44,096 bases of DNA from Acidimicrobiales bacterium (GTDB taxonomy: Bacteria > Actinomycetota > Acidimicrobiia > Acidimicrobiales > UBA8190): NCBI GenBank assembly GCA_035531755.1, contig DATKSK010000066.1:1-44096 (forward strand), given 5' to 3'. The translations under genes and the position numbers were made by a program. Positions 5,163-25,652 of this stretch are shown here, one piece after another (position 1 is the stretch's first letter; the number at the start of each line of letters is the position of its first letter). Below the pieces are notes generated by a model that made no database searches, was not told the DNA's origin, and saw only the letters and a list, made by a program, of their open reading frames with translations.

Positions 5163-6440
5163 CTACGCCGTGCCGGGCCACAGGTCCTCGGGCTCGCGGC
5201 CCATGGTCTCGGGGAGGAGCGCGAACAACGCGGTGGCGAGCACCACGGGAAGGAACGTGACGGCGGCGGCCAACCCGAATTGGTTCCCGATCTGGCCGAC
5301 GGTCCCGAAGGTGACGAGGCCGGTCACGGCGCCGGCGACGCTGGCGGCCACGTTCCAGCCCGCCACCGAGGCCCGGACCGAGGTCGGGAAGAGCTCGTTG
5401 GCGAGCGCGCCGGCCGCCGGGGCGAAGGTCGCCGCCGCCAGCACCGCCAGCTCGTAGCCGACGAGCAGCGCCAGGCGCGACCCGCTGTAGGCCAGCATGC
5501 CGGTGAGGGCCATGGCCAGCATGGCGAGGGCGCCCGTGGGACGGCGCCCCACCCGGTCCGCCAGGAACCGGCCGAGCAACAGCCCCGTCAACCCGAAGGC
5601 CGCCGCCGCGGCCACCATGGCGGCGGTCTGGTCGCCGGACATCTTCAGGACGTTCTGCGCGTACAGGAAGACGAAGCCCGTGGCGGGGCCGGTCACCACG
5701 GCGACGGCGAACGCCAGCGACGCCACCGTGAGCAGGCGCCAGCGGTAGGCGGGTGCCACCGCGCCGAACACCGGCACGGGGTGTTCGACCGCCGCGGCCG
5801 CGATGGCGAAGCGACCGGGCTCGACGAGCCACCGCCGGATGAAGAGCATGGCCAGGAGCGGGATGACGGCCAGGGCGAAGAGCCCCCGGAACCCGAGGGT
5901 CGACTTGGCGAGGCCGTGGATCACCGCCGTCAGGCCCGAGCCCACGCCGTAGCCGGCGGCGATGAGGGCGATGGCCCGGGCGCGGTCCCAGGTGCCGGTT
6001 TCCTCGGCCGCGCTGACCTGGGCGACGGCGTTGGTGGCACTCAGCAGCGGGCGGCCGAGCGCGAAGATGACCACGAACCACCAGTAGCCGGGCGAGGCCG
6101 ACGCCAGGACGGTGAAGGTGAGCCCCAGGGTGCAGGTCACCAGGAGCATGAACCGGCGCCCGTAGCGGTCGGCGAGGCCGGCGAGGGGGAGGCCACCGAG
6201 CGAGGCCAGTCGCAGGACGGCGAGCCCCACCCCGAGGGACGTGAGCGACAGCCCGGTCTGGTCGGCGATCGTCCTGCCGTGGACGATGCGGCCGAAGTGC
6301 GCGGCCACGTCGCCCAGTGCCGCCACCGCGCCGAACTGCCCGAATCCCGAGGCGAGCGCCATGAGCGCCAGTCCCACGATGGCGCGATCGGACCACGAAC
6401 GGAGCCCGAGGTCCCCGCCCGGCGGACCGCCGGCGCTCAC
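5163..6440 (-). CDS. MFS transporter
   Basis: Predicted 12-helix inner-membrane transporter of 425 aa. The loop 2-3 signature appears as GLADRYGRRFMLL in the first half and repeats as LADRVGRRPTG in the second half, the pseudo-symmetry typical of major facilitator proteins. LPETMGREPEDL at the end resembles the PETKG-type ending of sugar-porter-like members. The GTG at 6440 follows the stop codon of the nicotinate phosphoribosyltransferase gene by 10 nt, so the two are probably co-transcribed. That could hint at uptake of a pyridine or carboxylate compound, but this is inference. The open frame extends to 6785 inside the upstream gene; that extension has no hydrophobic character and was left out. 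Confidence 0.88.
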   Translation of the reverse strand: MSAGGPPGGDLGLRSWSDRAIVGLALMALASGFGQFGAVAALGDVAAHFGRIVHGRTIADQTGLSLTSLGVGLAVLRLASLGGLPLAGLADRYGRRFMLLVTCTLGLTFTVLASASPGYWWFVVIFALGRPLLSATNAVAQVSAAEETGTWDRARAIALIAAGYGVGSGLTAVIHGLAKSTLGFRGLFALAVIPLLAMLFIRRWLVEPGRFAIAAAAVEHPVPVFGAVAPAYRWRLLTVASLAFAVAVVTGPATGFVFLYAQNVLKMSGDQTAAMVAAAAAFGLTGLLLGRFLADRVGRRPTGALAMLAMALTGMLAYSGSRLALLVGYELAVLAAATFAPAAGALANELFPTSVRASVAGWNVAASVAGAVTGLVTFGTVGQIGNQFGLAAAVTFLPVVLATALFALLPETMGREPEDLWPGTA

Positions 6441-6450
6441 GACGGGGCGC

Positions 6451-7818
6451 TCACGATGGCGGCACACCACCTGATCGACGTGCGGCGGCTTCCGCCCGTT
6501 CGGCCGTGCTCCGCAGGGCGGCTGTCGATCCGGGGACGACGGCCTGCGGTGCGTCCAGGGCGCGTGCCCCCGGCGGGAGGTCGGCGAGGTCGGCTTCGAA
6601 GCGCGCCCGGGCGGCCGTGATGTCGGCCACCGGGCCGCCCGCGGGGACGGTCGCCACCACCGGGTCGACGCGCCGGCCGCCGTGCATGACCGGCTCGAGC
6701 AGCGGGCGTGTCCCGACGGGCGGTTCCTCGTCACGGAGGCCGATCGTGTCGCGCATCGAAGGGCCCCGGAATACCTGTTTCGCACCGGGGAGCGACACCT
6801 TCCCCGGTGACAGCTTCATCACCGGGCGGCCGGCGAACGAGACGAGCTTGTAGGCGCTGTCGAGGAAGGGGGCGTCCGCGGACACCCCGAGGCGCGTCCC
6901 GACGCCCGCCGCGTCCACCGGGGCGCCGTCGGCCACCAGCCGGGCCAGGTCGTGCTCGTCGAGGCCTCCGGAGACGAGGATGCGGACCCGGGGAAGCCCG
7001 GCGGCGTCGAGCATGCGACGGGCCTGGTGGGCCAGTGCGCCGAGGTCGCCGCTGTCGAGCCGCACAGCGGCGTCCTCGCCCAGGCCGAGCTCGGTGATCA
7101 CGGTGATGGCGTTGGCCATGCCCGTCGAGGTGTCGTAGGTGTCGACGAGGAGCGTCACCCCCCGGGGATGGTCGCGGGCGTAGGTGCGGAAGGCGTCGAT
7201 CTCGGTCGGGAACGCCTCGACGAAGGAGTGGGCCATGGTCCCCGACGGGCGCAGCCCGTAGCGCCGGGCCGCCTCCACGTTGCTGGTGGCGACGAACCCC
7301 ACCATGGCCGCCACGCGTGCCGCCGCCATGCCGGCCTCGATCCCCTGGGTCCGCCGCAGCCCGAACTCCACGAGATCGAGGCGGTCGGCGGCGGCCAGGC
7401 GGCAGCGCGCCGCCTTCGAGGCCAGCGTGGTCTGGAAGGTGATCTGGTTGAGCAGGACCGTCTCGGCCAGCTGTGCCTCGGCGACAGGCGCGGTGACCTC
7501 GAGCAGGGGCTCCTGGGCGAACACGATGCGGCCCTCGGGGACCGCCCACACGTCACCGGTGAAGCGCAGCGTCGAGAAGGCCTCGAGGCTGGCGTCGTCG
7601 AAGCCCACCGTGGCCAGGTACTCGAGCTCTTCGGCGTCGAAGCGGAACTGCTCGAGCCAGTCGAGACAGGCACCGAGCCCCGCCGCCACCAGGAAGCCCC
7701 GCTCGGGCGGGAGCGCCCGGACGAAGAGGCTGAACGTGGCGGTGTCGTTCATGGCGTGGCGCAGGTAGCTCGCCGCCATGTTCAGCTCGTAGAGATCGGT
7801 CCGCAGCCCGCCGCTCAT
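6451..7818 (-). CDS. pncB: Nicotinate phosphoribosyltransferase
   Basis: Predicted cytoplasmic enzyme of 455 aa that joins nicotinate and PRPP to give nicotinate mononucleotide with ATP hydrolysis, in NAD salvage. It starts RTDLYELNMAASYL, the near-invariant N-terminus of the actinobacterial enzymes. EFGLRRTQG (151-159) and SGTMAHSF (192-199, with His197 in the position of the phosphorylated His) are the family's active-site segments. VSGGLDEHDL and GVGTRLG later form the phosphate-binding end of the barrel. ATG at 7818 was chosen from this N-terminus; the frame runs open to 8166. The 190-nt gap to the first AftD gene is a divergent promoter region. Confidence 0.95.
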   Translation of the reverse strand: MSGGLRTDLYELNMAASYLRHAMNDTATFSLFVRALPPERGFLVAAGLGACLDWLEQFRFDAEELEYLATVGFDDASLEAFSTLRFTGDVWAVPEGRIVFAQEPLLEVTAPVAEAQLAETVLLNQITFQTTLASKAARCRLAAADRLDLVEFGLRRTQGIEAGMAAARVAAMVGFVATSNVEAARRYGLRPSGTMAHSFVEAFPTEIDAFRTYARDHPRGVTLLVDTYDTSTGMANAITVITELGLGEDAAVRLDSGDLGALAHQARRMLDAAGLPRVRILVSGGLDEHDLARLVADGAPVDAAGVGTRLGVSADAPFLDSAYKLVSFAGRPVMKLSPGKVSLPGAKQVFRGPSMRDTIGLRDEEPPVGTRPLLEPVMHGGRRVDPVVATVPAGGPVADITAARARFEADLADLPPGARALDAPQAVVPGSTAALRSTAERAEAAARRSGGVPPS

Positions 7819-7939
7819 GTGCCCTGCCCGCGTTCGCCGCCGGAAGCCGCGATGTGCCCCCGTTCTACTCGCCTGCTCGCCGGGGGGTGGGGACGGCGGC
7901 CGCCGCGGGACCGTCAGGCAATGGCGGGCGGGCACCTCG

Positions 7940-7945
7940 TAGGCT
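7940..7945 (+). promoter_or_regulatory. Possible -10 (TAGGCT) for the first AftD gene
   Basis: TAGGCT stands 63 nt before the GTG at 8009 in the divergent gap and resembles the recurring TAGCCT hexamer. No -35 match at 17 nt and no strong ribosome-binding site near the start were seen. Confidence 0.3.
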
Positions 7946-8008
7946 GCCACCCGGCCGCCCCGAGGTTTCGAGCGCTCGTGCCGCGGGGGCGCCGCGCCAC
8001 CTCGAACC

Positions 8009-11000
8009 GTGACCCGAACCCGCCCGCCCGCCGACGAGCCGAGCACCCCCCGCCCGCCACGCTCCGGGCGCCGCGTCGTGGCTACCTGGTCCGGGCACCT
8101 CGTGCTGGCCGCGGTGGCGTACGTCCCGCTCCTGCGTACCGCACCGGGGCAGGTGGGCGCGGACACGAAGCTCTACCTCTACCTCCACCCGGCGCGGTTC
8201 ATGTCGCAGGTGGCGTCCATGTGGGACCCCGACGTCGCCATGGGGTCGGTCACGCACCAATACATCGGCTACCTCCTCCCCATGGGCCCCTACTACGCGT
8301 CGATGCAGGGCCTCGGGGTGCCCACGTGGGTGGCCCAGCGCCTGTGGACGGGCAGCCTGCTCTTCCTGGCCGGCGCGGGCGTGCTGTTCCTCCTGCGCAC
8401 CCTGTCGCCGGTGACCACCACGCCGGGGGCCGGGTCGCTCGACATGGGCACGCTGGGCGGCGTGGGCGCCATGGTGGCGGCCTTCGCCTACATGCTCTCG
8501 CCCTACGTGCTGCAGAACGAGGCCCGGGCGTCGGTGTTGCTGCTGCCGTGGGTGGGGCTCCCGTGGATGATCGGGCTCGTGGCCCGGGCCCTGCGCCACG
8601 GCGGGTGGCGGCATCCCGCGCTCTTCGCCGTGGTGGTGGCGCTGGTCGGGAGCACGAACGCCGCCTCCCTGGTGCTGGTGGGCGTGGGGCCCGTGCTGTG
8701 GGTGCTGTGGGAGCTCGTCGCCCGCCGCGTGGACTGGCGCCGGGCGCTGGCGACCACGCTCGAGATCGGGGTGCTCAGCGCGGCGGTGTCACTGTGGTGG
8801 GCGACGGGGCTCGCCGTCGAGGGCACCTACGGCATGGACATCTTGCGCTACACCGAGACGATCCCCACCGTGGCGCGCACGAGCCTGGCGTCGGAGACGC
8901 TGCGGGGCCTCGGCTACTGGTTCTTCTACGGCGTCGACAAGGTGGGTCTGTACCTGCCGATGGCGGGTCCCTACATGACGTCGGTGTGGCTCCTGGCGGT
9001 GAGCTTCGCCGTCCCGGCCGCGGCGTTCCTGGCCGCGTTCGTGACCCGGTGGCGCGAGCGGGCGTTCTTCGTGACCCTGATCGTGGTGGGCACGATCATG
9101 TCCGTCGGCGCGCACCCGCTGTCGGACCCCTCGCCGCTGGGTCGCCTGATCAAGGCGGGGGCCACCGGCTCGACGGTGGGTCTGGCCCTGCGCAGCACCA
9201 ACCGTGCCACGCCGCTCGTCGTCCTCGGGGTGGCCGTGCTCCTCGGGGCGGGCGTCGCCGCCCTCGCCCGCCGGTGGAGGATCGCGGGGGTGGTGGCGGC
9301 CGCCGCGGCGACCGGCCTCGTGGCCGCTGACCTTCCCGCGCTGTGGACGGGGCAATTCGTCGCCGCCAACCTGAGCAGGCCCGAACACATCCCCTCGTAC
9401 CTGACGCAGGCGGCCGACTACCTCGACAACCAGCCCGGGGCCCACCAGACCCGCGTCCTGACCGAGCCCGGCATCGACTTCGCCGTCTACAACTGGGGCA
9501 CCACGCTCGAGCCGGTGCTGCCCGGCCTCATGACCCGCCCCGAGGTGGACCGGGGCCTCGTGCCCTACGGCTCGCCGGGGTCGGCCGACCTGCTGGGAGC
9601 GGTCGACGAGGGCGTCCAGGCCGGCACCTTCGACCCCTCGGCACTCGCTCCCATGCTCCGCCTGATGAGCGCCGGCGATCTCGTGCTCGAGTCCGACTTT
9701 CAGTACGAGCACTACGACACGCCCCGCCCCCAGGCCCTGTGGCAGAAGCTCGACCCTCCGCCGCCCGGGCTGGGCGCCCCCATCGGGTTCGGCAGCCCCA
9801 GGGTCACGGCGGCCTCGCCGAGGAAGTACCCGGAGATCGACGAGACGGCGCTGGGCCTCCCCCACGACGCCGCCTATCCGGCACCGGTGGTGGCCTTCCC
9901 CGTGGCGAACGCCCGCCCCATCCTGCGGACCGAGGGCGCCACCACCCCGATGCTCGTCGACGGTGACGGCACCGGACTGGTGGCGGCCGCCGGCGCCGGC
10001 CTGCTCGACGGGCAGGCGACCGTCTTCTATTCGCCGTCGTTCGCATCGCAGCCGGCCGAGCTGCAGCGCCAGGTGGCCCGGGGTGCCGACCTGGTGGTCA
10101 CCGACACCAACCGGCGCCAGGCCGAGCAGTTCGGCACCGTGCGCGAGAACGTCGGGTACACCGAGATGGCCGGCGAGAAGGCACTCGTCCCCGACAGCCG
10201 CGACGCCCGGCTGCCGCTGTTCCCCGCGGCCGCCGGGGACACGAGCAGGACGGTGGCCGTGCAGCTCGGGGTGAAGAGCGTGCAGGCGAGCGGCTACGGC
10301 AACCCCATCACCTACGTGCCCGAGGACCGGCCCGACCAGGCGATGGACGGCAACCTCCGCACGGTGTGGACGGTGGGCGCCTTCGACGACCCGGTGGGCC
10401 AGTTCCTGCGGATCACGCTCGACCACCCCCTCACCACCGACCACGTCAACCTCGTGCAGCCGCTCTATGGACCACGTGACCGGTGGATCACCCGCGCCAC
10501 CTTGCGCTTCGACGGCGGCCGGCCGATCACGGTCGACCTCGACGGCACGTCGCGGACCTCGGCGGGGCAGACCGTGTCCTTTTCCACGCGGACGTTCACC
10601 ACGCTGCAGATCACCATCGACAGGACGAACACGAGCGGCCAGCGCTCGACCGACGGGATGTCGGGCGTGGGCTTCGCCGAGGTCCGTCTCGGCGGCCAAC
10701 AGGTCGACGAGGTGCTCCGCATGCCGCAGGACCTGTTGACGGCGGCCGGCGCGTCCTCCGCGTCGCACCGCCTGACCCTCGTGATGACACGCCAGACCGC
10801 GGCCCCCGTCCCGCCGCGCACCGACCCTGAGATCGACATCGCCCGCTTCTTCACGCTGCCCACAGCGCGGTCGTTCTCGGTGAGCGGCACCGCCGAGCTG
10901 TCGCCGCTGGTCCCCGACGACGACATCGACCGGCTGCTCGGGACGACCGTCCCCGGTGTCGAGGCGGCGTACTCGTCGGGCCGGCTCCCCGGCGCGTTGC

Positions 11001-12670
11001 AGGACCGGGCGTCGTCGACGCTCGACGGCGACCAGGCCACGGTGTGGAGCCCCGGGCTGGGGCCGCAGGCCGGCAACTGGCTCGAGTACGACCTGGCGCG
11101 CCCGCTCACGTTCGACCACCTGTCGATGTCCGTCGTCGCCGACGGCCGGCATTCGGTGCCGACGTCGGTGACCGTCAGCGCGGGGGGCCAGAGCCGGACG
11201 GTCCCCGTGCCGGCCCTGTCCGACAGCACGCAGCCGTGGGCGACGCAGACGGTCACGCTGACGTTCCCCGCGCTGACCGGCACCGACGTGCGGCTCACCT
11301 TCGGCACGGTGCGGCAGGTGACCGATCTCGACTACTACTCCGACACGCAGGTGGGCCTGCCTCTCGGCATCGCCGAGGTGACCATCCCCGGCATGCCCCG
11401 GGCCGTCGCCGCCCCCGCCGCGCTGCCCGGGACGTGCCGGAGCGACCTGCTCACCGTGGACGGCGTGCCGGTGCCGGTGAGCATCACGGGCACGACGGCG
11501 GCCGCCGAGGCCCTCGACGCCGTCGGGGTGCACGGCTGTGGCAGCGCCACCGACGGCATCACCCTCGGCGCCGGCCCGCACGAGCTGCAGACCCAACCGG
11601 GGTTCCCGCCGGGCGTCGACGTGAACATCGACAGCCTCGTGCTCGACTCGGGCCCGGGCGGGTCCGCGCTGGCGACCGGGGCGACGGGGCGGGCGCAGCC
11701 CGTCGAGTCGGGGCCGGCGCCGACGCTCACGGTCGTGCACTCCTCGGCGACGGCGGCGAAGGTCGTGGTCCACCATCCGACGCGGCCGTTCTGGATGGTG
11801 CTCGGTGAGAGCACCAACGCCGGGTGGCACGCCATCACCGGCACCGGCGCGGACCTGGGCCCGCCGCAGCTCGTCGACGGCTACGCCAACGGGTGGTTGG
11901 TGACCCCCGCCACCGCGGGCCACGACATGGTCATCATGCTGCAGTGGACGCCGCAGCGGCTGGTGTCGGCGTCGTTGGTGGTATCCGGGGTGTCGCTGGC
12001 GCTGTGCCTTGCCCTGGGCTGCCTGCCGCGGCGATGGCGGGCGAGGCTGCGTCGGCTCGCCCGGTCGGTGCGGGCGAGGCCGCGCCGCCGTGCGCGGCCG
12101 GAGGAGCCGGGCGTCGCCGTGCCCATCGGCCCCGCCGGAGCCTACCGTCGGGCCTCGGCGCCGGGCACCGTCTCGGCACGACTCCACGGCGCGCCACCGG
12201 GGGCGTCCGACACGGCCGCCGAGCGCTCCCCCCTGCTCGGCTCGCCGTTGCGATCGTCGGGGGCGCGGCCGGGGTGGGTGGGCCTGGTCGTCGTGCCCGT
12301 CGTGGCCGGGGGGGTCACCGCCGCCGTCGTCACCCCGGGCGCCGGTCTCCCGGTGGCCGCGGCCGCCTTCCTGGCCGCCGCCACCGGCTACGGGAGGGTC
12401 GTGCTCGCCGTCGGGTCGGTGGGACTGCTCGTCGCCGTGGACCGCATGGTGACCAGTGCCCAGCGCACGTTCCACTACGCCGCCGACTTCGGGTGGCCCA
12501 ACCATGTCGAGACGGCGAGCACGCTGGCGTGGATCGCCGTGGCGGTGCTCGGCGCCGACGCACTGGTGCAGGAGGTCCGTGACCGTCGCGCCCGCGGCGC
12601 GCCCCGGTCGGGACGGCGGACGAGCCCCAACCACCCTGCACGGGGCAGGCACATTCGTCGGCCCGAGTGA
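8009..12670 (+). CDS. AftD-type alpha-(1->3)-arabinofuranosyltransferase homologue (DUF3367 GT-C), copy 1
   Basis: Predicted membrane glycosyltransferase of 1553 aa using a polyprenyl-phosphate sugar on the outer face of the membrane. After a short Pro/Arg-rich N-terminus and the first helix, the loop ADTKLYLYLHPARF carries Asp52, the likely GT-C acidic residue, then the family stretch YIGYLLPMGPYY. About a dozen helices follow to about residue 480. The large extracellular part has two discoidin/CBM32-like modules (about 755-870 and 990-1090). The ending has TM helices at about 1315-1335 and 1425-1530. Mycobacterial AftD is somewhat shorter but similarly arranged. A paralogue lies at 32447-36943. 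The acyltransferase gene follows after 28 nt. Real donor and acceptor sugars are unknown; arabinose is only the mycobacterial precedent. Confidence 0.88.
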   Translation: MTRTRPPADEPSTPRPPRSGRRVVATWSGHLVLAAVAYVPLLRTAPGQVGADTKLYLYLHPARFMSQVASMWDPDVAMGSVTHQYIGYLLPMGPYYASMQGLGVPTWVAQRLWTGSLLFLAGAGVLFLLRTLSPVTTTPGAGSLDMGTLGGVGAMVAAFAYMLSPYVLQNEARASVLLLPWVGLPWMIGLVARALRHGGWRHPALFAVVVALVGSTNAASLVLVGVGPVLWVLWELVARRVDWRRALATTLEIGVLSAAVSLWWATGLAVEGTYGMDILRYTETIPTVARTSLASETLRGLGYWFFYGVDKVGLYLPMAGPYMTSVWLLAVSFAVPAAAFLAAFVTRWRERAFFVTLIVVGTIMSVGAHPLSDPSPLGRLIKAGATGSTVGLALRSTNRATPLVVLGVAVLLGAGVAALARRWRIAGVVAAAAATGLVAADLPALWTGQFVAANLSRPEHIPSYLTQAADYLDNQPGAHQTRVLTEPGIDFAVYNWGTTLEPVLPGLMTRPEVDRGLVPYGSPGSADLLGAVDEGVQAGTFDPSALAPMLRLMSAGDLVLESDFQYEHYDTPRPQALWQKLDPPPPGLGAPIGFGSPRVTAASPRKYPEIDETALGLPHDAAYPAPVVAFPVANARPILRTEGATTPMLVDGDGTGLVAAAGAGLLDGQATVFYSPSFASQPAELQRQVARGADLVVTDTNRRQAEQFGTVRENVGYTEMAGEKALVPDSRDARLPLFPAAAGDTSRTVAVQLGVKSVQASGYGNPITYVPEDRPDQAMDGNLRTVWTVGAFDDPVGQFLRITLDHPLTTDHVNLVQPLYGPRDRWITRATLRFDGGRPITVDLDGTSRTSAGQTVSFSTRTFTTLQITIDRTNTSGQRSTDGMSGVGFAEVRLGGQQVDEVLRMPQDLLTAAGASSASHRLTLVMTRQTAAPVPPRTDPEIDIARFFTLPTARSFSVSGTAELSPLVPDDDIDRLLGTTVPGVEAAYSSGRLPGALQDRASSTLDGDQATVWSPGLGPQAGNWLEYDLARPLTFDHLSMSVVADGRHSVPTSVTVSAGGQSRTVPVPALSDSTQPWATQTVTLTFPALTGTDVRLTFGTVRQVTDLDYYSDTQVGLPLGIAEVTIPGMPRAVAAPAALPGTCRSDLLTVDGVPVPVSITGTTAAAEALDAVGVHGCGSATDGITLGAGPHELQTQPGFPPGVDVNIDSLVLDSGPGGSALATGATGRAQPVESGPAPTLTVVHSSATAAKVVVHHPTRPFWMVLGESTNAGWHAITGTGADLGPPQLVDGYANGWLVTPATAGHDMVIMLQWTPQRLVSASLVVSGVSLALCLALGCLPRRWRARLRRLARSVRARPRRRARPEEPGVAVPIGPAGAYRRASAPGTVSARLHGAPPGASDTAAERSPLLGSPLRSSGARPGWVGLVVVPVVAGGVTAAVVTPGAGLPVAAAAFLAAATGYGRVVLAVGSVGLLVAVDRMVTSAQRTFHYAADFGWPNHVETASTLAWIAVAVLGADALVQEVRDRRARGAPRSGRRTSPNHPARGRHIRRPE

Positions 12671-12682
12671 GAGCGGCCATGG

Positions 12683-12688
12683 TACGGT
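12683..12688 (+). promoter_or_regulatory. -10 hexamer TACGGT of the acyltransferase gene
   Basis: TACGGT ends 10 nt before the ATG at 12699, in the 28-nt gap after the AftD gene. This would give the acyltransferase its own nearly leaderless transcript. Confidence 0.4.
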
Positions 12689-12698
12689 CGAACGACTG

Positions 12699-14198
12699 AT
12701 GGTGGACGCCGCGCCCCTTCCCGCTGCCGAGGCGATCGACGAACCGGTCGACGGCGCGGCGGCACCGGATCTCCGGAGCCCCGAGAGCGGCATACCGGGC
12801 GTCCGGCCCCGGCACTTCCCCTGCTTCGACGGGCTGCGTGCCATCGCAGCGGTCCTCGTCGTCCTGGTGCACACGGGGTTCGACTCGGGGTTCACCCTGC
12901 GAAGTTCGTACGGCATCTACACCGCCCGCCTCGAGATCGGCGTGTCGGTGTTCTTCCTCATCTCGGGGTTCCTGCTCTACCGGCCCTTCGCGGCGTCGCA
13001 CATCGCCGGCGGGGCGCCGCCGGCCGTGGGGACCTTCTGGGCGCGGCGCCTGCTGCGCATCCTCCCGGCGTACTGGCTGGCGTTCGTGGTGACGAGCTAT
13101 GTCCTGCACGCCAACAAGATCTATCCCGGGTGGCACTCGGTGCTGATCTACCTGGGCCTGCTGCAGATCTACTTCCCGAAGCACTCGTTGTCGGGGATCA
13201 CGCAGGCGTGGTCCCTGTGCACCGAGATCTCCTTCTACTTCTTCCTGCCCCTGTTCGCCATGGCGGTGAACGCGCGGCGCCGCTCCGACCGTCACCAGAT
13301 GCGCCGCGAGGTCATGGTCCTCGTCGTGCTCTACACCATCGGGATCGGCCTGCGTTTCTGGTTGCTCCACTCCCACTCGGGCGCGGCGGGCGCCATGGAG
13401 ACGACACTGCCCGCGTACCTCGACCTCTTCGCGCTCGGCATGTTCCTGGCCCTGGCGAGCAGCTGGCTGGCACACCGCCACCGCGAGCCCCGGTGGCTCT
13501 GGCACCCGGCCATGCCGTGGGTCAGCTGGGGGCTGGCGCTGGCGATGCTGTGGTCGGTGTCGCACATCGGGATCTCGCGGCTCCCGCTCGTGCACAGCTC
13601 GCCGGGGCGCGGCGTCGAGCAGGAGGTGCTGTACGGCCTGTTCGCGTTCTTCCTGCTGCTGCCGGCGGTCTTCGGCCCCCAGCACCGCGGTGTGATCCGC
13701 GGGGCGCTCACGTGGAAGCCCGTGGTGGCCCTCGGCATCGTGTCCTACGGCCTCTACCTGTGGCACCAGGCGTGGGCCACGCTGTTCGTCAAGTGGACGG
13801 GGCTGCTGTTCCGCCTGCCGCTGCTCGGGATGTTCGCCGTCGTCTTCGGCATGGGCCTGATCTCCGCCATCGCCAGCTATGTGATCGTGGAGCGGCCCAT
13901 CCTCGGCTTGAAGGACCGGCTGGGGTGGTGGAGCCGGATCCCGCGGCCCGGCGCCAGGGCACGCGGCCGGGCCGGGCCGACTGCGGTGTCAGCCGGAGCC
14001 CCCGCCGCCGTCGGCGACGTCCTTGCGGAGCAGGGCGAGCTCCTCGGCGAAGACACCGGTCATGTCCTCGAGCCTGCGCAGCTGCGAGCGCAGGTAGACG
14101 CAGACCGTCAGGAGGACGAGGGCGGCCAGCACGGTGAGCAGGGCCGGGGGGCTGATGACGCCGAGGGCCCGGGCGAGGCGGTCGAAGAGCCCAGGTGA
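12699..14198 (+). CDS. Membrane acyltransferase, OafA/acyltransferase-3 family
   Basis: Predicted multi-helix inner-membrane enzyme that O-acylates a sugar. The family's first-helix motif reads FDGLRAIAAVLVVLVHTGF with the conserved His58, then FFLISGFLLYRPF and RRLLRILPAYW. The C-terminal helix ends YVIVERPILGL. The ATG at 12699 was chosen over the longer open frame (from 12456) because upstream codons overlap the AftD gene and carry no domain. The acyltransferase domain ends near residue 430. The last 70 residues are low-complexity, rich in E, D, Q and G, and are read through the antisense of the small gene at 13989-14222, so the true stop may have been lost by mutation. AftD and acyltransferase genes are also near each other in mycobacteria. 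Confidence 0.85.
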   Translation: MVDAAPLPAAEAIDEPVDGAAAPDLRSPESGIPGVRPRHFPCFDGLRAIAAVLVVLVHTGFDSGFTLRSSYGIYTARLEIGVSVFFLISGFLLYRPFAASHIAGGAPPAVGTFWARRLLRILPAYWLAFVVTSYVLHANKIYPGWHSVLIYLGLLQIYFPKHSLSGITQAWSLCTEISFYFFLPLFAMAVNARRRSDRHQMRREVMVLVVLYTIGIGLRFWLLHSHSGAAGAMETTLPAYLDLFALGMFLALASSWLAHRHREPRWLWHPAMPWVSWGLALAMLWSVSHIGISRLPLVHSSPGRGVEQEVLYGLFAFFLLLPAVFGPQHRGVIRGALTWKPVVALGIVSYGLYLWHQAWATLFVKWTGLLFRLPLLGMFAVVFGMGLISAIASYVIVERPILGLKDRLGWWSRIPRPGARARGRAGPTAVSAGAPAAVGDVLAEQGELLGEDTGHVLEPAQLRAQVDADRQEDEGGQHGEQGRGADDAEGPGEAVEEPR

Positions 14199-19256: not shown

Positions 19257-19802
19257 TCAGAGACGCGCCGGGGCGATGTACCGCGCGGACACCACCCGCC
19301 CCTGGCGGAACTCGATGACCCACACGCACCCCTTCAGGCCCGGCGGGCGGCGCGGCAGGCGGATGCCGTCGGCGGCGGCGAGCGCGGCCAGCACCACGCC
19401 GATCACCTCACCATGGGTGCAGAGGACGACCGTTCCCGACGACCCCTGGTCCGACGACCCCTGGCCCGACGACCCCTGGTCCGACGACCCCTGGTCCGAC
19501 GACCCCGGGGTGGACAGGGAGCGGACGAGCGCCAGCGCGCCGTGCGCGGCATTGGGGGTCAGGTCGGCACCCTCCTCGATCGGGATCCCCAGCTCGGCGG
19601 CGAGGGGTTCCATCGTCTGGATGCACCGGTCGGACGGGCTCGAGAGGATGCGGTCGGGTCGCAGGGGGGCCACGACGTCGGCGATGTGCATGGCCTGGCG
19701 TCGCCCGCGGGCGTCGAGGGGCCGGCGCCGATCGTCGCCGGCCCATCCCTCCTTCGTCCCCGCACGGCCGTGTCGCACCAGCACGAGCTGCACGATCCCC
19801 AT
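19257..19802 (-). CDS. Histidine phosphatase family protein (SixA/phosphoglycerate-mutase-like)
   Basis: Predicted cytoplasmic phosphatase of 181 aa. LVRHGRAG near the N-terminus carries the nucleophilic His (RHG motif). Arg residues in SSPSDRCIQT and the second His in VVLCTHGEVIGV complete the active-site pocket, so the enzyme should be active. The start ATG at 19802 opens MGIVQLVLVRHG; the long open frame beyond it (to 21335) is spurious. Just before the strand with the second His, the protein carries tandem SSDQG units encoded by a 15-bp repeat, an unusual insertion into an enzyme core. The next gene (spermidine-synthase-like) starts 58 nt downstream on the same strand. Substrate unknown. 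Confidence 0.88.
   Translation of the reverse strand: MGIVQLVLVRHGRAGTKEGWAGDDRRRPLDARGRRQAMHIADVVAPLRPDRILSSPSDRCIQTMEPLAAELGIPIEEGADLTPNAAHGALALVRSLSTPGSSDQGSSDQGSSGQGSSDQGSSGTVVLCTHGEVIGVVLAALAAADGIRLPRRPPGLKGCVWVIEFRQGRVVSARYIAPARL
19441..19500. repeat. 15-bp coding tandem repeat (SSDQG units), 4 copies
   Basis: Four copies of gacccctgg(t/c)ccgac at 19441-19455, 19456-19470, 19471-19485 and 19486-19500, with degenerate half-copies on both sides. They lie in frame in the phosphatase gene on the minus strand. Confidence 0.9.
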
Positions 19803-19883
19803 GATGCCCCGCCGGCGTGAGGCCGGGCGGTGGCGCGCCCGGAATGTGACGACGACGGCACCACCGGCGGCGACGGTTGCCGG

Positions 19884-19898: not shown

Positions 19899-20789
19899 GT
19901 GCGTGCCCTGCAGCGGAAGACGGTTGCCATCGCAGTCGTGGTCGTGGTGGTCGGGGGGATCGCCGCCGGCATCGCGCTGTCGGCCGGAGGATCGGGGCAC
20001 CCGGTGACCGTCCCCGGGACGCGGCGACCCGCCGTCCCCTCGGTCCGGCCGCCTGCCGTCCCCGCCGGCGCGTTCGCCGTCGACACGTTCCACCGCGTGG
20101 TGTCGGGGGGATGGGGCGGCGCCGACGTGGGCGGGCCGTGGGTGGTCGCCAAAGGCGCGTCGGCCGACCTGTCGGTGGACGGTCACGACGGCAGCGTGGC
20201 CGTGCGGGCGGGCCCGTTCCTGACCGCCGAGCACATCGTCGTGCTGCCCGCCACGTCGGTCGCCGACTTCGAGGGGACCTTCGACGTCTCGTTCATGGAG
20301 GACATCAACACCGTGGACCCCGCCTACGGGGGCGTGCTGGCCTATGTGGTGGCCCGCTACCGCAACGCCGGGGCGACCGGGTACTACCGCCTCGGCCTGG
20401 TGTGGGACGCGGCGACGCGCCGGCTGTGGCTGCGCACCCAGAACCCGGTGGGCAAGGGCCAACCCGGTGACTTCACCATCGAGTACGACACCGGCATCGA
20501 CCCGACGGCGGACTTCCCCGCCGGGCCGCCCTACGGCCCGTACCGCGTGGCGGTCCGGATCTCTGGGTCCGACCCGACCACCTTCGCGTCCAAGGTCTGG
20601 CGGGCGGGCGGCCCCGAGCCGAGCGGGTGGATGCTGACAGGGCGCGACGGCGCCGACCGGGGACCGCAGGTGGCCGGGCCCGTCGGTGTCCGGGTGAGCG
20701 ACGACCTGCAGAGCAGCCCCCGTGTCTACCTCGACTTCGTCGCGCACGTGCGCATCGGGAACCTGGTGCTGGGCCCGGCCACGCGCTGA
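19899..20789 (+). CDS. Membrane-anchored extracellular protein, LamG/concanavalin-like
   Basis: A 296-residue protein with a basic start (RALQRK), one hydrophobic segment (TVAIAVVVVVVGGIAAGIAL, about residues 8-28) and a Pro-rich linker. A 220-residue domain follows, rich in strands and aromatic residues (FEGTFDVSFMEDINT, TGYYRLGLVWDAATRRLWL). That pattern is usual for concanavalin/LamG-like jelly-roll modules that bind glycans, but I cannot assign a named family. The GTG at 19899 puts the basic residues directly before the hydrophobic segment and has a -10-like hexamer 9 nt upstream. Its stop codon lies inside the first unit of a 20-bp tandem array. It diverges from the phosphatase gene. A role in holding or sensing a surface polysaccharide would fit the region but is inference. 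Confidence 0.7.
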   Translation: MRALQRKTVAIAVVVVVVGGIAAGIALSAGGSGHPVTVPGTRRPAVPSVRPPAVPAGAFAVDTFHRVVSGGWGGADVGGPWVVAKGASADLSVDGHDGSVAVRAGPFLTAEHIVVLPATSVADFEGTFDVSFMEDINTVDPAYGGVLAYVVARYRNAGATGYYRLGLVWDAATRRLWLRTQNPVGKGQPGDFTIEYDTGIDPTADFPAGPPYGPYRVAVRISGSDPTTFASKVWRAGGPEPSGWMLTGRDGADRGPQVAGPVGVRVSDDLQSSPRVYLDFVAHVRIGNLVLGPATR

Positions 20790-20930
20790 GCGGTCCGGCC
20801 ACGCGCTGAGCGGTCCGGCCACGCGCTGAGCGGTCCGGCCACGCGCTGAGCGGTCCGGCCGCGCGCCGAGCGGTCCGGCCGCGCGCCGAGCGGTCCGAGC
20901 GGGCGCCGAGCGGTCCGAGCGGGCGCCGCC
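20781..20930. repeat. 20-bp tandem array, 7 copies plus a half
   Basis: Unit acgcgctgagcggtccggcc. Copies 1-4 (20781-20860) are identical, copy 5 has gcgcgccgag, copies 6-7 (20881-20920) drift further to ...gtccgagc, and a half-copy ends at 20930. The stop codon (TGA, 20787-20789) of the LamG-like gene is in copy 1, so copies 2-4 carry extra TGA codons. There are no unique spacers, so it is not a CRISPR array. Confidence 0.95.
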
Positions 20931-21078
20931 GCCCGCGTTCCCGAGCAGGGAGGCTCCGGGGGCCGGGGGTTGCTCCGGTGCCCGGGCACGTGCTTTCTCG
21001 TAGGGGGCTCTCCGCCTACGCTTGTGCGACCGCACCCCGTGGCGTGCGTGGGGCCGGAGGGGGCAGGCAGGGCAATTG
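20931..21078. promoter_or_regulatory. Leader region of the cyclase gene
   Basis: A TACGCT hexamer (21017-21022) could be a -10, which would leave a leader of about 50 nt. GGAGGGGG (21055-21062) is the best ribosome-binding candidate but sits 16 nt before the GTG at 21079. No -35 match. Confidence 0.3.
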
Positions 21079-24000
21079 GTGTCGGAGCAGGTGGTGTCGG
21101 AGCAGGCAACCGCAGTGTCGCGTGCACCCGCGCCCCCCGCCAGCGGGACGGGGAACCTCCTGGCGCCGTACCTGCCGCGGCTGGTGGTCGACTGGGTCAC
21201 CGGGTCCCCCACCGATATCCACCGCGACATCGCCGGGTCCGTGGCCTTCGTCGACATCTCGGGCTTCACCAAGCTGTCCGAGCGCCTGGCGAGCCACGGC
21301 AAGGTGGGCGCCGAGGAGCTCAGCGAGACCATCAACCGGTGCTTCGTGGATCTCCTGGCGGTCGGCTACGCCCACGGCGGGGGCCTGATCAAGTTCGGGG
21401 GTGACGCACTCCTTCTGCTCTTCACCGGCGACGACCACGAGGTCCGGGCGTGCCGGGCGGCGGTGGGCATGCGCAGGACGCTGCGCGCCGTGGGCAGGAT
21501 CACGGTGCTCGGGCACCGGGTCGGGCTGCGGATGTCGGTGGGCGTGCACAGCGGCGCGTTCGATTTCTTCCTCGTCGGTGAGACGCACCGGGAGCTGATC
21601 GTCACCGGGCCGGCGGCCAGCACGACGGTGAGCATGGAGTCCACGGCCGAAGCGGGCGAGATCGTCGTCAGCCCGGCGACGGCGCGGGCCCTGCGCTCGA
21701 GCGTCCTGGGGAGCGGCAAGGGGGACGGGGTCCTCCTGCGGCGGGCGCCGCCCGGCCTGTCGTGCGCGCCTGCCACCCTCGAGCCCGTCAGCGCTTCGAC
21801 CGACCTGTCGGCATGCGTCTCCACGGCCGTGCGCGCCGCGCTCCTGGCGGGGATGCAGGAGCCGGAGCACCGTCGGGTGACCGTCGCCTTCATCCACTTC
21901 GATGGCACCGACGCCCTCATCGAGTCGTCGGGCCCCGAAAAGCTCGCCCATCTCCTCGACGGGCTCGTCAGCGGTGTGCAGCGGTCCGCCGACCGGCAGG
22001 GTGTCGCCTTCTTGGGGACCGACATCGACCGCGACGGCGGGAAGATCATCCTCACCGCCGGCGCGCCGTCGAGCTCGGGCGGGGACGAGCACCGGATGCT
22101 GCTGGTCCTGCGCGAGGTGATGGACCTGCGCCCTGAGCTGCCCCTGCGGATCGGGGTCAACCGCGGCTCGGTCTTCGCGGGCGACATCGGCCCCCACTAC
22201 CGGCGCACCTTCACGGTGATGGGCGACGCCGTCAACCTGGCAGCCCGGCTCATGGCCAAGGCACAGCCCGGCCAGATCCTGTCGAGCCCCGACGTGCTCG
22301 AGCAGTCCGGGGCCGACGTCGACACCGTCGAGCTCGAGCCCTTCGTGGTGAAGGGCAAGGCCCAGCCCGTCCGGGCGCTGAGCGTGGGGAACGTGGCGAC
22401 GGCTCGGCGGAGCCGGCGCGACGACGGCATCCCCTTCGTGGGCCGGCACACGGAGATCGGCCTCATGCGCGACGCCGTGACCGGGGCGCGCCAGGGCGGC
22501 GGCGCCCTCCTCCAGATCACGGGGGAGCCCGGCGTCGGCAAGTCACGGCTGGTCGAGGAGCTCCAGGCGATGGCCGGCGACATGACGCTGGTCCGGGCGA
22601 CGTGCGAGCACTACGAGTCGTCCACGCCCTACTTCCCGCTGCGGGGGTTGCTGCGAGGGCTGCTGGGCATCGCCCCCGACATGCCCGACACCGCGGCCGC
22701 CTCGTGCCTGCGCGACGCCGTGGACCGGGTCGCACCGGCAGTGGCGCCGTGGGTCCCCCTGCTCGCGTCGGTGGTCGACGTCCCCGTGCCCGACACCGAG
22801 GAGTCGGCGCAACTCGACGAGCAGTTCCGCCGTCCCCGGCTGGCGTCGGCGACCACCGAGCTGCTGGGCGCGCTCGTGGGCGCGCCCATGCTCCTCGTCG
22901 TGGAGGACGCCCACTGGATGGACGAGGCGTCCGCCGACGTCGTGCGCCACTGGGCGACAGCGGTGAGCGGCCGGCCCTGGGTGGTGTGCGTCACCCGCCG
23001 GGACGAGGCCACCGGGTTCTCGGCGCCACGCGAGCCGGCGGTGGTCCTCGTGGACCTCCTCCCCCTCGACGGCCAGGACGCCGCCGAGCTGATCCACCTG
23101 GCCACCCGGGACTCGCCCATCGCGCCGCACGCCATCGCCGCGCTGGCGGAGCGTTCGGGCGGCAACCCGCTCTTCCTGCGCGAGCTGGTGGCGAACACGC
23201 GGGCCGACAAGGGCCTCGGTGACCTGCCGGACTCGGTCGAGGCGGTCATCGCGGCCCGCATCGACCAGCTGCACCCGCTCGACCGGAACCTGCTGCGGCG
23301 CGCCTCGGTCCTGGGCCGGTCGTTCCCGGCCGGGCTCCTCGGGGCCGTCGTCGACGACTCCCCCGCCGTGACCGACGACCGCTGGCAGCGGCTGGGCGAG
23401 TTCCTGCAGCACGGCCCGGACGGCACGGTGACGTTCGCCCACGCCCTCATCCGCGACAGCGCGTACGACGGCCTGCCCTTCCGCCTGCGCCAGCGACTGC
23501 ACGCCCGCGCCGGCGACACCATCCGCGCCCAGGCCGGTGACGCCGCCGACGACCACGCCGAGCTCCTGTCACTGCATTTCTTCCATGCGCACCGCCACGC
23601 GGAGGCGTGGTCGTTCTCGCACGTGGCCGCGGAGCGCGCCCGCGCCGTCTACGCCAACATCGAGGCGGCGGAGTTCTACCAGCGCGCGCTCGACGTCGCC
23701 CGGCACCTGCCCGAGGTGGGCCCCGATGCCGTGGCCCGGACCCTCGAGGACCTCGGCGACGCCCAGAACCACGCCGGCAACTACCTGGCGGCCGAGGCCG
23801 CCTACCGCGCCGCGCGCCGCCACATCCACGGAGACGCCGTCGGCCAGGCCCGCGTCGTGCTGAAGCTGGCGCGCGTGATGGGCTGGCTGGACCGGTACTC
23901 GGCCGCGCTGCGGTGGATCACCCGCGGGTTGCGCACCATCGAGGGCGCCGAGGGCCCCGAGGCCGCCGCCCAACGGGCCCAATTGCTCGCCTGGTACGGG

Positions 24001-24993
24001 CGCTTCTGCCAGGAGGAGGGGCGCCACGCCCGCGCCATCACATGGTGCAACGCCGCGGTCGCCGAGGCCGAGGCGGCCGGCGAGCGCGACGCCATGGCGA
24101 ACGCCCTGAAGGTCCTCGACTGGGCGCACATGGACCTGGGCCGACTCGAGGAGCCCACCAACTGGACGCAGGCCCTGTCGCTCTTCGAGGAGCTCGGGGA
24201 CCTCACCGGGCAGGCGAGCGTGCTCAACATGCTGGGCGGGTTGGCGTACTTCCGCGGCGAGTGGTCGCGGGCCCTGGAGCTGTACCGCCGCGCCCAGGCG
24301 ATGGTGCGTCGCACGGGCAACTCCGTGATGGATGCCTTCTACATGAACAACATCGGGGAGATCTCGCTCGAGCAGGGCCGGCTCGCCGAGGCGGCGGAGC
24401 TGTTCACCGAGGCGTGGCGCATCTGGCAGGCCGCCGGCTACCGCTCGGGGGCCGCCTCGGTGCGGGGCCTGCTGGCCCGGGTGGCGTGCGGCGAGGGTCG
24501 CTTCGACGAGGCCATGGCACTGTTCGCGCAGTCGTTGCAGGAGTCACAGGGCGTGGGCGGCCACGTCGAGGTGCTCGACACCAAGGCCAGGATGGCCGAG
24601 TGCGAGCTCCTCGCCGGCCGGCCCGACGCCGCCCGACGCCTCGTGGAGGAGGCGCTCGAGGAGGCGAAGACCCTCGGCGGGGTGTCCGCCCAGCACCCAC
24701 TGCTCCTGCGGGTCCTGGGGGCCGCCCTGGCACGGACGGGCGACCTCGACGGGGCGCGCCGGGCGCTCCGGGAGAGCCTGGGTGCCGCCCAGACGCGGGG
24801 GGCCGACTACGAGCGGGCCCTCACCCTGCGGGTCGTGGCGCGCCTCGGCCACGGATCGGGGCCGGCGGCCGGAGCGGCCGAACAGAGCACGGCGGCCGGG
24901 ACGGCCGAGCAGAGCACGGCGGCCGGGACGGCCGAGCAGAGCACGGCCATCCTCGAACGGCTCGGCGTCGTCTGGACACCCGACCTGGTGTGA
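21079..24993 (+). CDS. Soluble-adenylyl-cyclase-type protein: two class III cyclase domains, AAA ATPase, TPRs
   Basis: A 1304-residue cytoplasmic protein predicted to make cAMP. Cyclase domain 1 (about 50-205) holds the metal-binding Asp59 (FVDISGFT) and Asp109 with Lys105 (IKFGGD). Domain 2 (about 265-435) holds Thr379, Asn386 and Arg390 in TVMGDAVNLAAR. Each domain lacks the other's residues, so together they form one active site, as in mammalian soluble adenylyl cyclase. An AAA_16-type ATPase follows: Walker A GEPGVGKS (482-489) and Walker B LLVVEDAHWMD (about 605). TPR-like helices run from about 830 to 1260. No HTH domain is seen. The C-terminus carries three TAEQSTAAG repeats. GTG 21079 was chosen over TTG 21022, which overlaps the putative -10. 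The input signal is unknown. Confidence 0.88.
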   Translation: MSEQVVSEQATAVSRAPAPPASGTGNLLAPYLPRLVVDWVTGSPTDIHRDIAGSVAFVDISGFTKLSERLASHGKVGAEELSETINRCFVDLLAVGYAHGGGLIKFGGDALLLLFTGDDHEVRACRAAVGMRRTLRAVGRITVLGHRVGLRMSVGVHSGAFDFFLVGETHRELIVTGPAASTTVSMESTAEAGEIVVSPATARALRSSVLGSGKGDGVLLRRAPPGLSCAPATLEPVSASTDLSACVSTAVRAALLAGMQEPEHRRVTVAFIHFDGTDALIESSGPEKLAHLLDGLVSGVQRSADRQGVAFLGTDIDRDGGKIILTAGAPSSSGGDEHRMLLVLREVMDLRPELPLRIGVNRGSVFAGDIGPHYRRTFTVMGDAVNLAARLMAKAQPGQILSSPDVLEQSGADVDTVELEPFVVKGKAQPVRALSVGNVATARRSRRDDGIPFVGRHTEIGLMRDAVTGARQGGGALLQITGEPGVGKSRLVEELQAMAGDMTLVRATCEHYESSTPYFPLRGLLRGLLGIAPDMPDTAAASCLRDAVDRVAPAVAPWVPLLASVVDVPVPDTEESAQLDEQFRRPRLASATTELLGALVGAPMLLVVEDAHWMDEASADVVRHWATAVSGRPWVVCVTRRDEATGFSAPREPAVVLVDLLPLDGQDAAELIHLATRDSPIAPHAIAALAERSGGNPLFLRELVANTRADKGLGDLPDSVEAVIAARIDQLHPLDRNLLRRASVLGRSFPAGLLGAVVDDSPAVTDDRWQRLGEFLQHGPDGTVTFAHALIRDSAYDGLPFRLRQRLHARAGDTIRAQAGDAADDHAELLSLHFFHAHRHAEAWSFSHVAAERARAVYANIEAAEFYQRALDVARHLPEVGPDAVARTLEDLGDAQNHAGNYLAAEAAYRAARRHIHGDAVGQARVVLKLARVMGWLDRYSAALRWITRGLRTIEGAEGPEAAAQRAQLLAWYGRFCQEEGRHARAITWCNAAVAEAEAAGERDAMANALKVLDWAHMDLGRLEEPTNWTQALSLFEELGDLTGQASVLNMLGGLAYFRGEWSRALELYRRAQAMVRRTGNSVMDAFYMNNIGEISLEQGRLAEAAELFTEAWRIWQAAGYRSGAASVRGLLARVACGEGRFDEAMALFAQSLQESQGVGGHVEVLDTKARMAECELLAGRPDAARRLVEEALEEAKTLGGVSAQHPLLLRVLGAALARTGDLDGARRALRESLGAAQTRGADYERALTLRVVARLGHGSGPAAGAAEQSTAAGTAEQSTAAGTAEQSTAILERLGVVWTPDLV
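24874..24950 (+). repeat. 27-bp coding tandem repeat (TAEQSTAAG), about 3 copies
   Basis: Copies at 24874-24900, 24901-24927 and 24928-24950 (partial), in frame near the C-terminus of the cyclase protein. Confidence 0.88.
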
Positions 24994-25002
24994 ACCGTCG
25001 CC

Positions 25003-25479
25003 TCAGGCGGCGCGCCGCAGGACACGGCGCACCGACAGGGCCCGGTGCAGCCCGTGGATGCCGGTGACAGGCGCCGCGAACATGAACGGGCACGCCCCGT
25101 CGACCACCCTCACGCCGTTGTGGCGGCACAGCGTCACGGCCTCGGGCGACACCGACCCCTTCCCCACGCCCCGGTGGAGCCACACCCGGGGCACACCCCG
25201 GGCGACGGCGTCTCGCACCACGTCGGCGGCGGCGTCGGCCCCCACCATGACGACGACCCCGTCGAGGGTCCCGGGCACCTCGGCCAGGGACCGATAGGCG
25301 CGGTCACCCTCGATGGCGGCCCCGTCGGCGACGCCGCGGTTGACCGGGACCATGGTCCGGCCGCCGTCGCGCAGCATGCGGTAGACGGCGTTCGGGAACT
25401 GGCGCGAGTCGGTGGACACGCCCACGAGGGCGATGTGCCGCTGGGCCAGGAAGTCGTCGATGTCGATCCGAGATGGCAC
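25003..25479 (-). CDS. CoA-binding domain protein (CoA_binding_2)
   Basis: A 158-residue cytoplasmic protein that is a single CoA-binding Rossmann domain. Strand 1 and the loop read ALVGVSTDSRQFPNAVYRML, followed by MVPVNRG and YRSLAEVPGTLDGVVVMV, the usual order for this family (YccU-like). A PRVWLHRGVG segment and a VVDGACPFMF ending match the family's C-terminal part, including the Cys often seen there. The GTG start at 25479 has a good ribosome-binding site (GGAAGGA about 5 nt upstream), an exception to the leaderless pattern elsewhere in the window. It converges on the cyclase gene with a 9-nt gap and diverges from the GT87-like gene. Biological role is not known for the family. Confidence 0.88.
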   Translation of the reverse strand: MPSRIDIDDFLAQRHIALVGVSTDSRQFPNAVYRMLRDGGRTMVPVNRGVADGAAIEGDRAYRSLAEVPGTLDGVVVMVGADAAADVVRDAVARGVPRVWLHRGVGKGSVSPEAVTLCRHNGVRVVDGACPFMFAAPVTGIHGLHRALSVRRVLRRAA

Positions 25480-25652
25480 GGTGTCCTTCCTTCCTGCCGG
25501 GGGGCCGCGCCGGGCGGCCCTCCTGCAGTATCCGCGCCGCTCGAGCCCGGCCACCAGGGGCGGAGGTCCCCGGTGCAGGGGCCGGGCGCTCGCCCCCGCC
25601 GCGGACGCCATGGCAGACTGCCACCGAAGCCCGTCCGTCCCCGGCACCGGTC

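Follow-up and report, generated by a model that had tools for sequence, protein, structure and literature searches.

A gene of an Acidimicrobiales bacterium raises the question of how far a bacterial tandem cyclase can be equated with human soluble adenylyl cyclase (sAC, ADCY10): is the likeness confined to the overall fold, or does it extend to the catalytic site and to the degenerate second site, where sAC binds bicarbonate? The stretch analyzed, referred to here as the window, comprises 44,096 nucleotides, and its open reading frames include a single long frame at 21022-24993 on the plus strand. The choice between two candidate starts, TTG at 21022 (1323 aa) and GTG at 21079 (1304 aa), is uncertain; the alignments of many relatives begin at approximately residue 28, where residue numbers, here and throughout, count from the GTG at 21079. 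Read from this codon, the gene (21079-24993; its features given below are likewise on the plus strand) encodes a tandem class III cyclase, a P-loop ATPase and a TPR array.

Pfam searches with the window protein returned, above the cut-offs, two Guanylate_cyc stretches (PF00211, 89.1 bits against a cut-off of 21.9), AAA_16 (75.2 bits against 32.6) and TPR. According to the Pfam match and the alignment with sAC, cyclase domain C1 (21238-21696) keeps Asp59 and Asp109 and carries Ser181 and Ser185 in place of the Asn/Arg pair, while C2 (21859-22365) keeps Thr379, Asn386 and Arg390 and carries His273 and Gly321 in place of the metal-binding Asp pair. The AAA_16 match (22432-22962), which includes a Walker A motif, GEPGVGKS (22522-22545), and a Walker B-like motif, LLVVEDAHWMD (22891-22923), is followed by the helical TPR array (23479-24852), which is supported by Pfam, the predicted structure and fold matches. 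A preliminary description of this DNA had held that the cyclase tandem runs on into ATPase and TPR regions, and these matches bear it out; the same combination of two cyclase domains, AAA_16 and TPR was present in all six clade members sampled with Pfam. Two short repeats accompany the gene: just upstream of it (20775-20917), a 20-bp unit is repeated directly in tandem about seven times, and close to the C-terminus a 27-bp repeat (24863-24947, 3.1 copies) encodes AEQSTAAGT-like units in a region that overlaps a low-confidence part of the predicted structure.

The likeness to sAC was assessed at the levels of sequence and fold. A one-sequence search of the PDB ranked human sAC first (E 1.7e-18), and a ten-row family profile also ranked it first, in a single stretch through both domains (E 1.5e-42), which places the catalytic residues in register. 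The structure predicted for C1-C2 (pLDDT 92.9, pTM 0.90) has a sAC-like fold: human sAC filled the top 24 rows of a Foldseek search against the PDB (E as low as 2.7e-29), and a second structural aligner gave human sAC a Z of 41.7 over 412 residues at 3.1 A and 22% identity, the best membrane cyclase being human AC9 (Z 37.2). Two of the checks proposed in the preliminary description, alignment with ADCY10 and structure prediction, came out in its favor, and the resemblance of the modeled C1-C2 pair to sAC is well beyond chance. The window protein and human sAC (PDB 4CLF, 4CLK and others) share the tandem C1-C2 arrangement with one catalytic and one degenerate site, the residues D47, D99, K95, T405, N412 and R416 of sAC, a fold alignment over ~ 410 residues of the predicted structure and a P-loop NTPase after the cyclase pair, represented in the window protein by AAA_16 with Walker A and B. 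Human sAC also has a TPR-like end. In contrast, identity is only 22-23%, the window protein lacks R176, K334, K144 and the FDKG loop of sAC (DRDG in the alignment), and its gene stands in a separate clade in the trees, which do not reject a joint grouping. Passages of PMC6660944 note that sAC, also in its bacterial forms, has a P-loop NTPase domain, and cite Roelofs and Van Haastert 2002 and Kobayashi and others 2004 for bacterial sAC-like P-loop proteins. Going by these passages, the kind of protein is already known, and the window clade is a variant of this known bacterial sAC-like kind; our literature search, which covered few subscription journals, returned no title or abstract start on this clade.

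These data raise the question of where the window gene stands among bacterial tandem cyclases. Relatives were drawn from the best 80 loci of named genomes, the close relatives of the window, its class and its phylum. Within the class, 67 of 395 genomes gave a match at E 1e-40, some of these matches being to a different tandem type, and within the phylum 30 of 396 genomes did so at E 1e-60; since the best matches were aligned (up to 30 each from class and phylum, in addition to the best 80), the sample leans towards close relatives. The first alignment comprised 90 ORFs, with 16 left out for low score or length together with three copies of the window, and the main alignment with sAC comprised 144 bacterial tandem rows, eight having been dropped for length, including clade member L044. 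The clade set consists of 84 rows, L095 having been removed from an initial 85 because it was in by the motif rule and out by the tree; its rows are not all independent, as six pairs are more than 90% identical and at least one pair is identical.

In a quick 91-row tree, all 35 rows of the window type fell on one side of a branch with support 100, and sAC was grouped with rows from Chloroflexota, a cyanobacterium, Pseudomonadota and Acidobacteriota (support 97). A slower tree of 32 hand-picked rows joined sAC to six type-a rows (97/95) and recovered the window clade at 100/100; types a, b and c, the last being that of the window, were assigned by motif after the alignment had been viewed, and a and b are not single groups in the 91-row tree. 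By these trees, the window gene belongs to its own, mainly actinobacterial clade. The placement of sAC among other bacterial tandem cyclases is tentative, as an AU test on the 32 hand-picked rows did not reject a grouping of sAC with the window clade (p 0.161) and sAC was flagged as a very long branch. The clade is marked by the motif DIDRDGGK (22021-22044), in which Asp315 occurs in 84 of 84 rows and Lys322, in DGGK, in 81, as well as by His120 (83/84) and Ser or Thr at position 153 (84/84). Members from named records comprise 20 Actinomycetota, 3 Pseudomonadota and 2 Acidobacteriota; the labels of the latter two are weak, all five being metagenome bins by their record titles.

Another important question is whether the active site is complete. 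According to passages of PMC12867704, bicarbonate is served in human sAC by K95 and R176, the ATP base by K334 and pyrophosphate by K144, the other working residues being D47, D99, N412 and R416. The nine residues named in the preliminary description (D59, K105, D109, S181, S185, H273, T379, N386 and R390) are all present, and two of its assignments have to be corrected. At the second metal position of C2, for which a basic residue had been given, the residue aligned with sAC is Gly321, Lys322 lying one further on; Lys105, which had been counted in the active-site set of domain 1, aligns with Lys95 of sAC, a bicarbonate-site residue. Asp59 (21253-21255) corresponds to D47 and Asp109 (21403-21405) to D99, both metal ligands of the predicted active site, and the segment TVMGDAVNLAAR (22213-22248) contains Thr379, Asn386 and Arg390, corresponding to T405, N412 and R416. 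Thus, one Asp/Asp and Asn/Arg set characteristic of class III cyclases (D59, D109, N386, R390) stands in register. This set is intact in 83 of the 84 clade rows, the remaining row being truncated: the equivalents of D99, N412 and R416 occur in 84/84 rows each and that of D47 in all 83 rows with a residue there, and the T405 position holds Thr or Ser in 81 of 84. The four positions are likewise intact in 143 of the 144 bacterial tandem rows (in the one exception, the first Asp falls in a gap), and their columns are among the 34 of 449 alignment columns conserved at 98% or more.

Such conservation across the clade, together with the sAC register, upholds the claim of one predicted active site and one pseudo-site shared between C1 and C2. 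The claimed match of this split site to sAC stands with regard to register, fold and the pairing of an intact with a degenerate site, but does not extend to the specific regulatory site, where R176 of sAC is replaced. Moreover, since the bacterial tandem cyclases aligned here generally share a split active site, it constitutes no special link to human sAC. The same applies to the spacings Lys-Asp +4, Thr-Asn +7 and Asn-Arg +4, which had been presented as equal to those of sAC. When a narrow regular expression was run on other cyclase genes of this genome and related ones (14 loci), all three spacings turned up at six loci (L019, L020, L021, L023, L024 and L026) and the Thr-Asn-Arg spacing alone at L002, with no Thr-Asn-Arg match at the other seven. 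In these sequences, the spacings are common, which does not imply that they are universal, and they were rejected as evidence of kinship with sAC because other cyclases in related genomes have them.

Comparison with other tandem cyclases places these features in context. The DDKG-type bacterial sAC-like cyclases, found at cyanobacterial, Chloroflexota, Proteobacteria and Acidobacteriota loci (such as L069, L071, L083, L107 and L074), share with the window protein two cyclase domains and one intact site, but K95 is kept in 10 and K334 in 8 of their 11 listed rows, and the K144 position holds Lys in 7, Arg in 3 and His in 1; R176 occurs in none of the 11, as in the window clade. The 'LQLTxGDKG' tandem cyclases of Chloroflexota and some Actinomycetota (L017, L018, L066), a type sorted by its letters at K95 and K334, also have two cyclase domains and one intact site and differ in that K95 is replaced, K334 is mostly Gln and K144 is mostly kept; they lie outside the window clade in the tree. 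On an Anaerolineae contig (L057), two tandem-cyclase ORFs adjoin each other (5758-9738 and 10518-13421). The TOMM system kinase/cyclase fusion model (NCBIfam TIGR03903) matches residues 378-892, the end of C2 and the ATPase, at 186 bits, far under its cut-off of 705.75, and the window protein, unlike this fusion, has no protein kinase domain among Pfam matches with E up to 1.

Is the pseudo-site, then, a bicarbonate sensor? Lys105 (21391-21393) occupies the K95 position and therefore falls in the pseudo-site half, and Lys is present there in 78 of 84 clade rows. At the position of R176, described in part of PMC12250328 as the switch that frees D99 upon bicarbonate binding, the window protein has Val184 (21628-21630), and none of the 144 bacterial tandem rows, including the 11 nearest to sAC in type, has Arg there; the pseudo-site therefore matches the bicarbonate site of sAC in the lysine but not in the switch. 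Among the initial 85 rows, the pseudo-site letters N173, R177, D298 and D342 occur in 0, 8, 0 and 0, respectively, and the clade has in turn Ser or Thr (76/84), a mixture led by Glu, a mixture led by His, Lys and Arg, and Gly (68/84) at these positions. A bacterial sensor working in the manner of sAC, in which bicarbonate in the pseudo-site would release the second metal-binding Asp by way of a switching Arg, could be supported by the rank of human sAC as the best PDB match in both sequence and fold and by the retained lysine. The threonine linked to bicarbonate regulation, which we take to be the Thr379 position, is also kept. Such a threonine is thought, according to a passage of PMC3383692, to predict bicarbonate regulation in sAC-like cyclases. 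However, passages of PMC12867704 tie the replacement of either K95 or R176 to lost bicarbonate sensitivity, so that, with valine at the switch position, bicarbonate sensing does not follow from the alignment, and the rows nearest to sAC in the trees belong to another type. We therefore consider a sensor of this kind most improbable, while the window protein may respond to bicarbonate by a route other than the Arg switch, a bacterial sAC-like cyclase being reported in PMC3085406 to be regulated by bicarbonate. The degenerate site would be regulatory at most.

The residues that would contact the nucleotide bear on two further readings. Since Thr379 matches T405, the adenine contact of sAC according to part of PMC12250328, cyclic AMP is the likeliest product suggested by the alignment; the Thr or Ser at this second base position nevertheless decides little, because both are also found there among guanylyl cyclases (a passage of PMC4215837). 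The ATP-base lysine K334 is replaced by Gly313 (22015-22017), its column in the clade containing no Lys (mostly Ala 36, Gly 26, Glu 9 and Ser 4 of 84), and none of the 85 rows has a Lys anywhere in sAC columns 330-338, beta-2 of C2. The pyrophosphate lysine K144 is likewise absent, its place being taken by Ser153 (21535-21537), part of the invariant Ser/Thr column noted above. With the usual base lysine missing, this choice of product is tentative, and the additional loss of the pyrophosphate lysine makes weak turnover or a non-ATP substrate possible. A preference for GTP or a pyrimidine nucleotide would fit the replaced lysine and the invariant Asp315 two residues after it, as well as the PADLOC Pycsar cyclase models, which match both domains (best E 2.4e-11); yet these matches are weak and would suit class III domains of many kinds, Chloroflexota rows combine this Asp with a retained Lys334 (NKIDMGDKG), and the second base position is sAC-like, for the little that this weighs. 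Such a preference is accordingly very unlikely in our estimation. The loss of both lysines could also mean that the cyclase pair binds nucleotide without turnover, serving as a nucleotide-sensing or dimer-forming module of a STAND protein; a tandem class III cyclase-like ATP-binding protein of Pseudomonas aeruginosa, presumably without cyclase activity, is indeed among the fold matches (6yii, Z 27.2). A pseudo-enzyme would hardly be expected to retain Asp/Asp/Asn/Arg in every untruncated clade row at a median pairwise identity of 45%, and we judge this reading unlikely, although less so than the previous two. We infer, rather, a cyclase with one working site, probably producing cyclic AMP.

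Genomic context was also considered. The genome contains seven cyclase-domain matches, two of them in the window gene, and three cNMP-binding domains that score above the cut-off and are candidate receptors for cyclic nucleotides. Of seven nearby ORFs, five had no Pfam match, and some of these may not be genes; the other two matched His_Phos_1 (histidine phosphatase) and CoA_binding_2 (CoA-binding), at 19257-19850 and 25003-25647, both on the minus strand. When the neighborhoods of 32 loci were compared, leaving aside the cyclase and overlapping frames, no neighbor family common to at least three loci included the window; three Agromyces loci by themselves accounted for most shared families, and the largest of the remainder covered 5, 5 and 4 loci. 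A phage-defense reading was set aside, as PADLOC matched only Pycsar-cyclase and TPR models. With regard to a dedicated Pycsar cyclase beside an effector gene, the cyclase matches are weak, and the Pfam families identified among the nearby ORFs are the two named. A tRNA search of the window found none. Elsewhere in the window, a 126-bp repeat (3220-3792, 4.5 copies, 73% matches) has a consensus that looks protein-coding, GYWLVASDGGVFAFGDA-like.

What could control the cyclase pair is suggested by the C-terminal half, the predicted structure of which has a pLDDT of 88.2. Its NTPase half aligns with MalT (8bob; Z 20.5, 376 aligned residues, 5.3 A) and Apaf-1 (3sfz; Z 18.5, 387 aligned, 5.1 A), and its TPR half aligns with MalT domain III (1hz4; Z 24.2, 327 aligned, 3.8 A). 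The first Foldseek row is 6mfv, a STAND protein with a TPR sensor (E 2.0e-12). Weighing against a STAND reading, which draws on fold and P-loop, Rap (Z 26.1) and similar TPR proteins head the list of the structural aligner for the C-terminal model, TPR proteins predominate among the 60 of 97 PDB matches listed for the C-terminal profile, and the superposition with 6mfv is loose (TM 0.34/0.42, 12 A). In the window protein, a P-loop NTPase carrying Walker A and B precedes helical repeats, with a MalT/Apaf-1-like predicted fold, the layout by which STAND proteins are recognized. The NTPase and helical-repeat fold is shared with STAND NTPases that have a TPR sensor (MalT, PH0952) and, more distantly, with Apaf-1; the window protein differs from them in its output domain, a cyclase pair. 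Given the likeness of this half to MalT and Apaf-1, the protein is most likely to be a STAND switch that controls a cyclase with a single site. The Walker A pattern was matched in 68 of 76 clade rows, and two of the eight non-matching rows (L039, L047) do carry the motif. In the remaining six (L036, L051, L012, L123, L135, L149), the first Gly is replaced, as in ADVGMGKS, and L135 lacks a second Gly too (AEASMGKS); ATP switching is therefore perhaps not universal in the clade.

Taken together, these results make it probable that the window gene encodes a soluble STAND-like signaling protein with TPR input and a sAC-like, pseudo-heterodimeric class III nucleotidyl cyclase output with one catalytic site. 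In such a protein, the TPR array would sense an input, the P-loop ATPase would change its state, and the cyclase output would change in turn, C1 contributing the metal-binding Asp59 and Asp109 and C2 contributing Thr379, Asn386 and Arg390 to the single site. More speculatively, and with the balance of probability against it, the clade might have rebuilt both sAC-like pockets under STAND ATPase control, with the base read without a lysine, perhaps by Asp315, and with Lys105 and the clade-specific Lys322 of the pseudo-site holding a regulatory anion or nucleotide without an Arg switch.

In our sample of bacterial tandem cyclases, an intact site paired with a degenerate one is the rule, and the mammalian Arg switch occurs in 0 of 144 rows, so that the role the pseudo-site had in the ancestor becomes open to experiment. 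If a STAND ATPase does gate the cyclase, this protein would offer a soluble bacterial system, amenable to study, as a model of the C-terminal part of full-length sAC, which is poorly understood.
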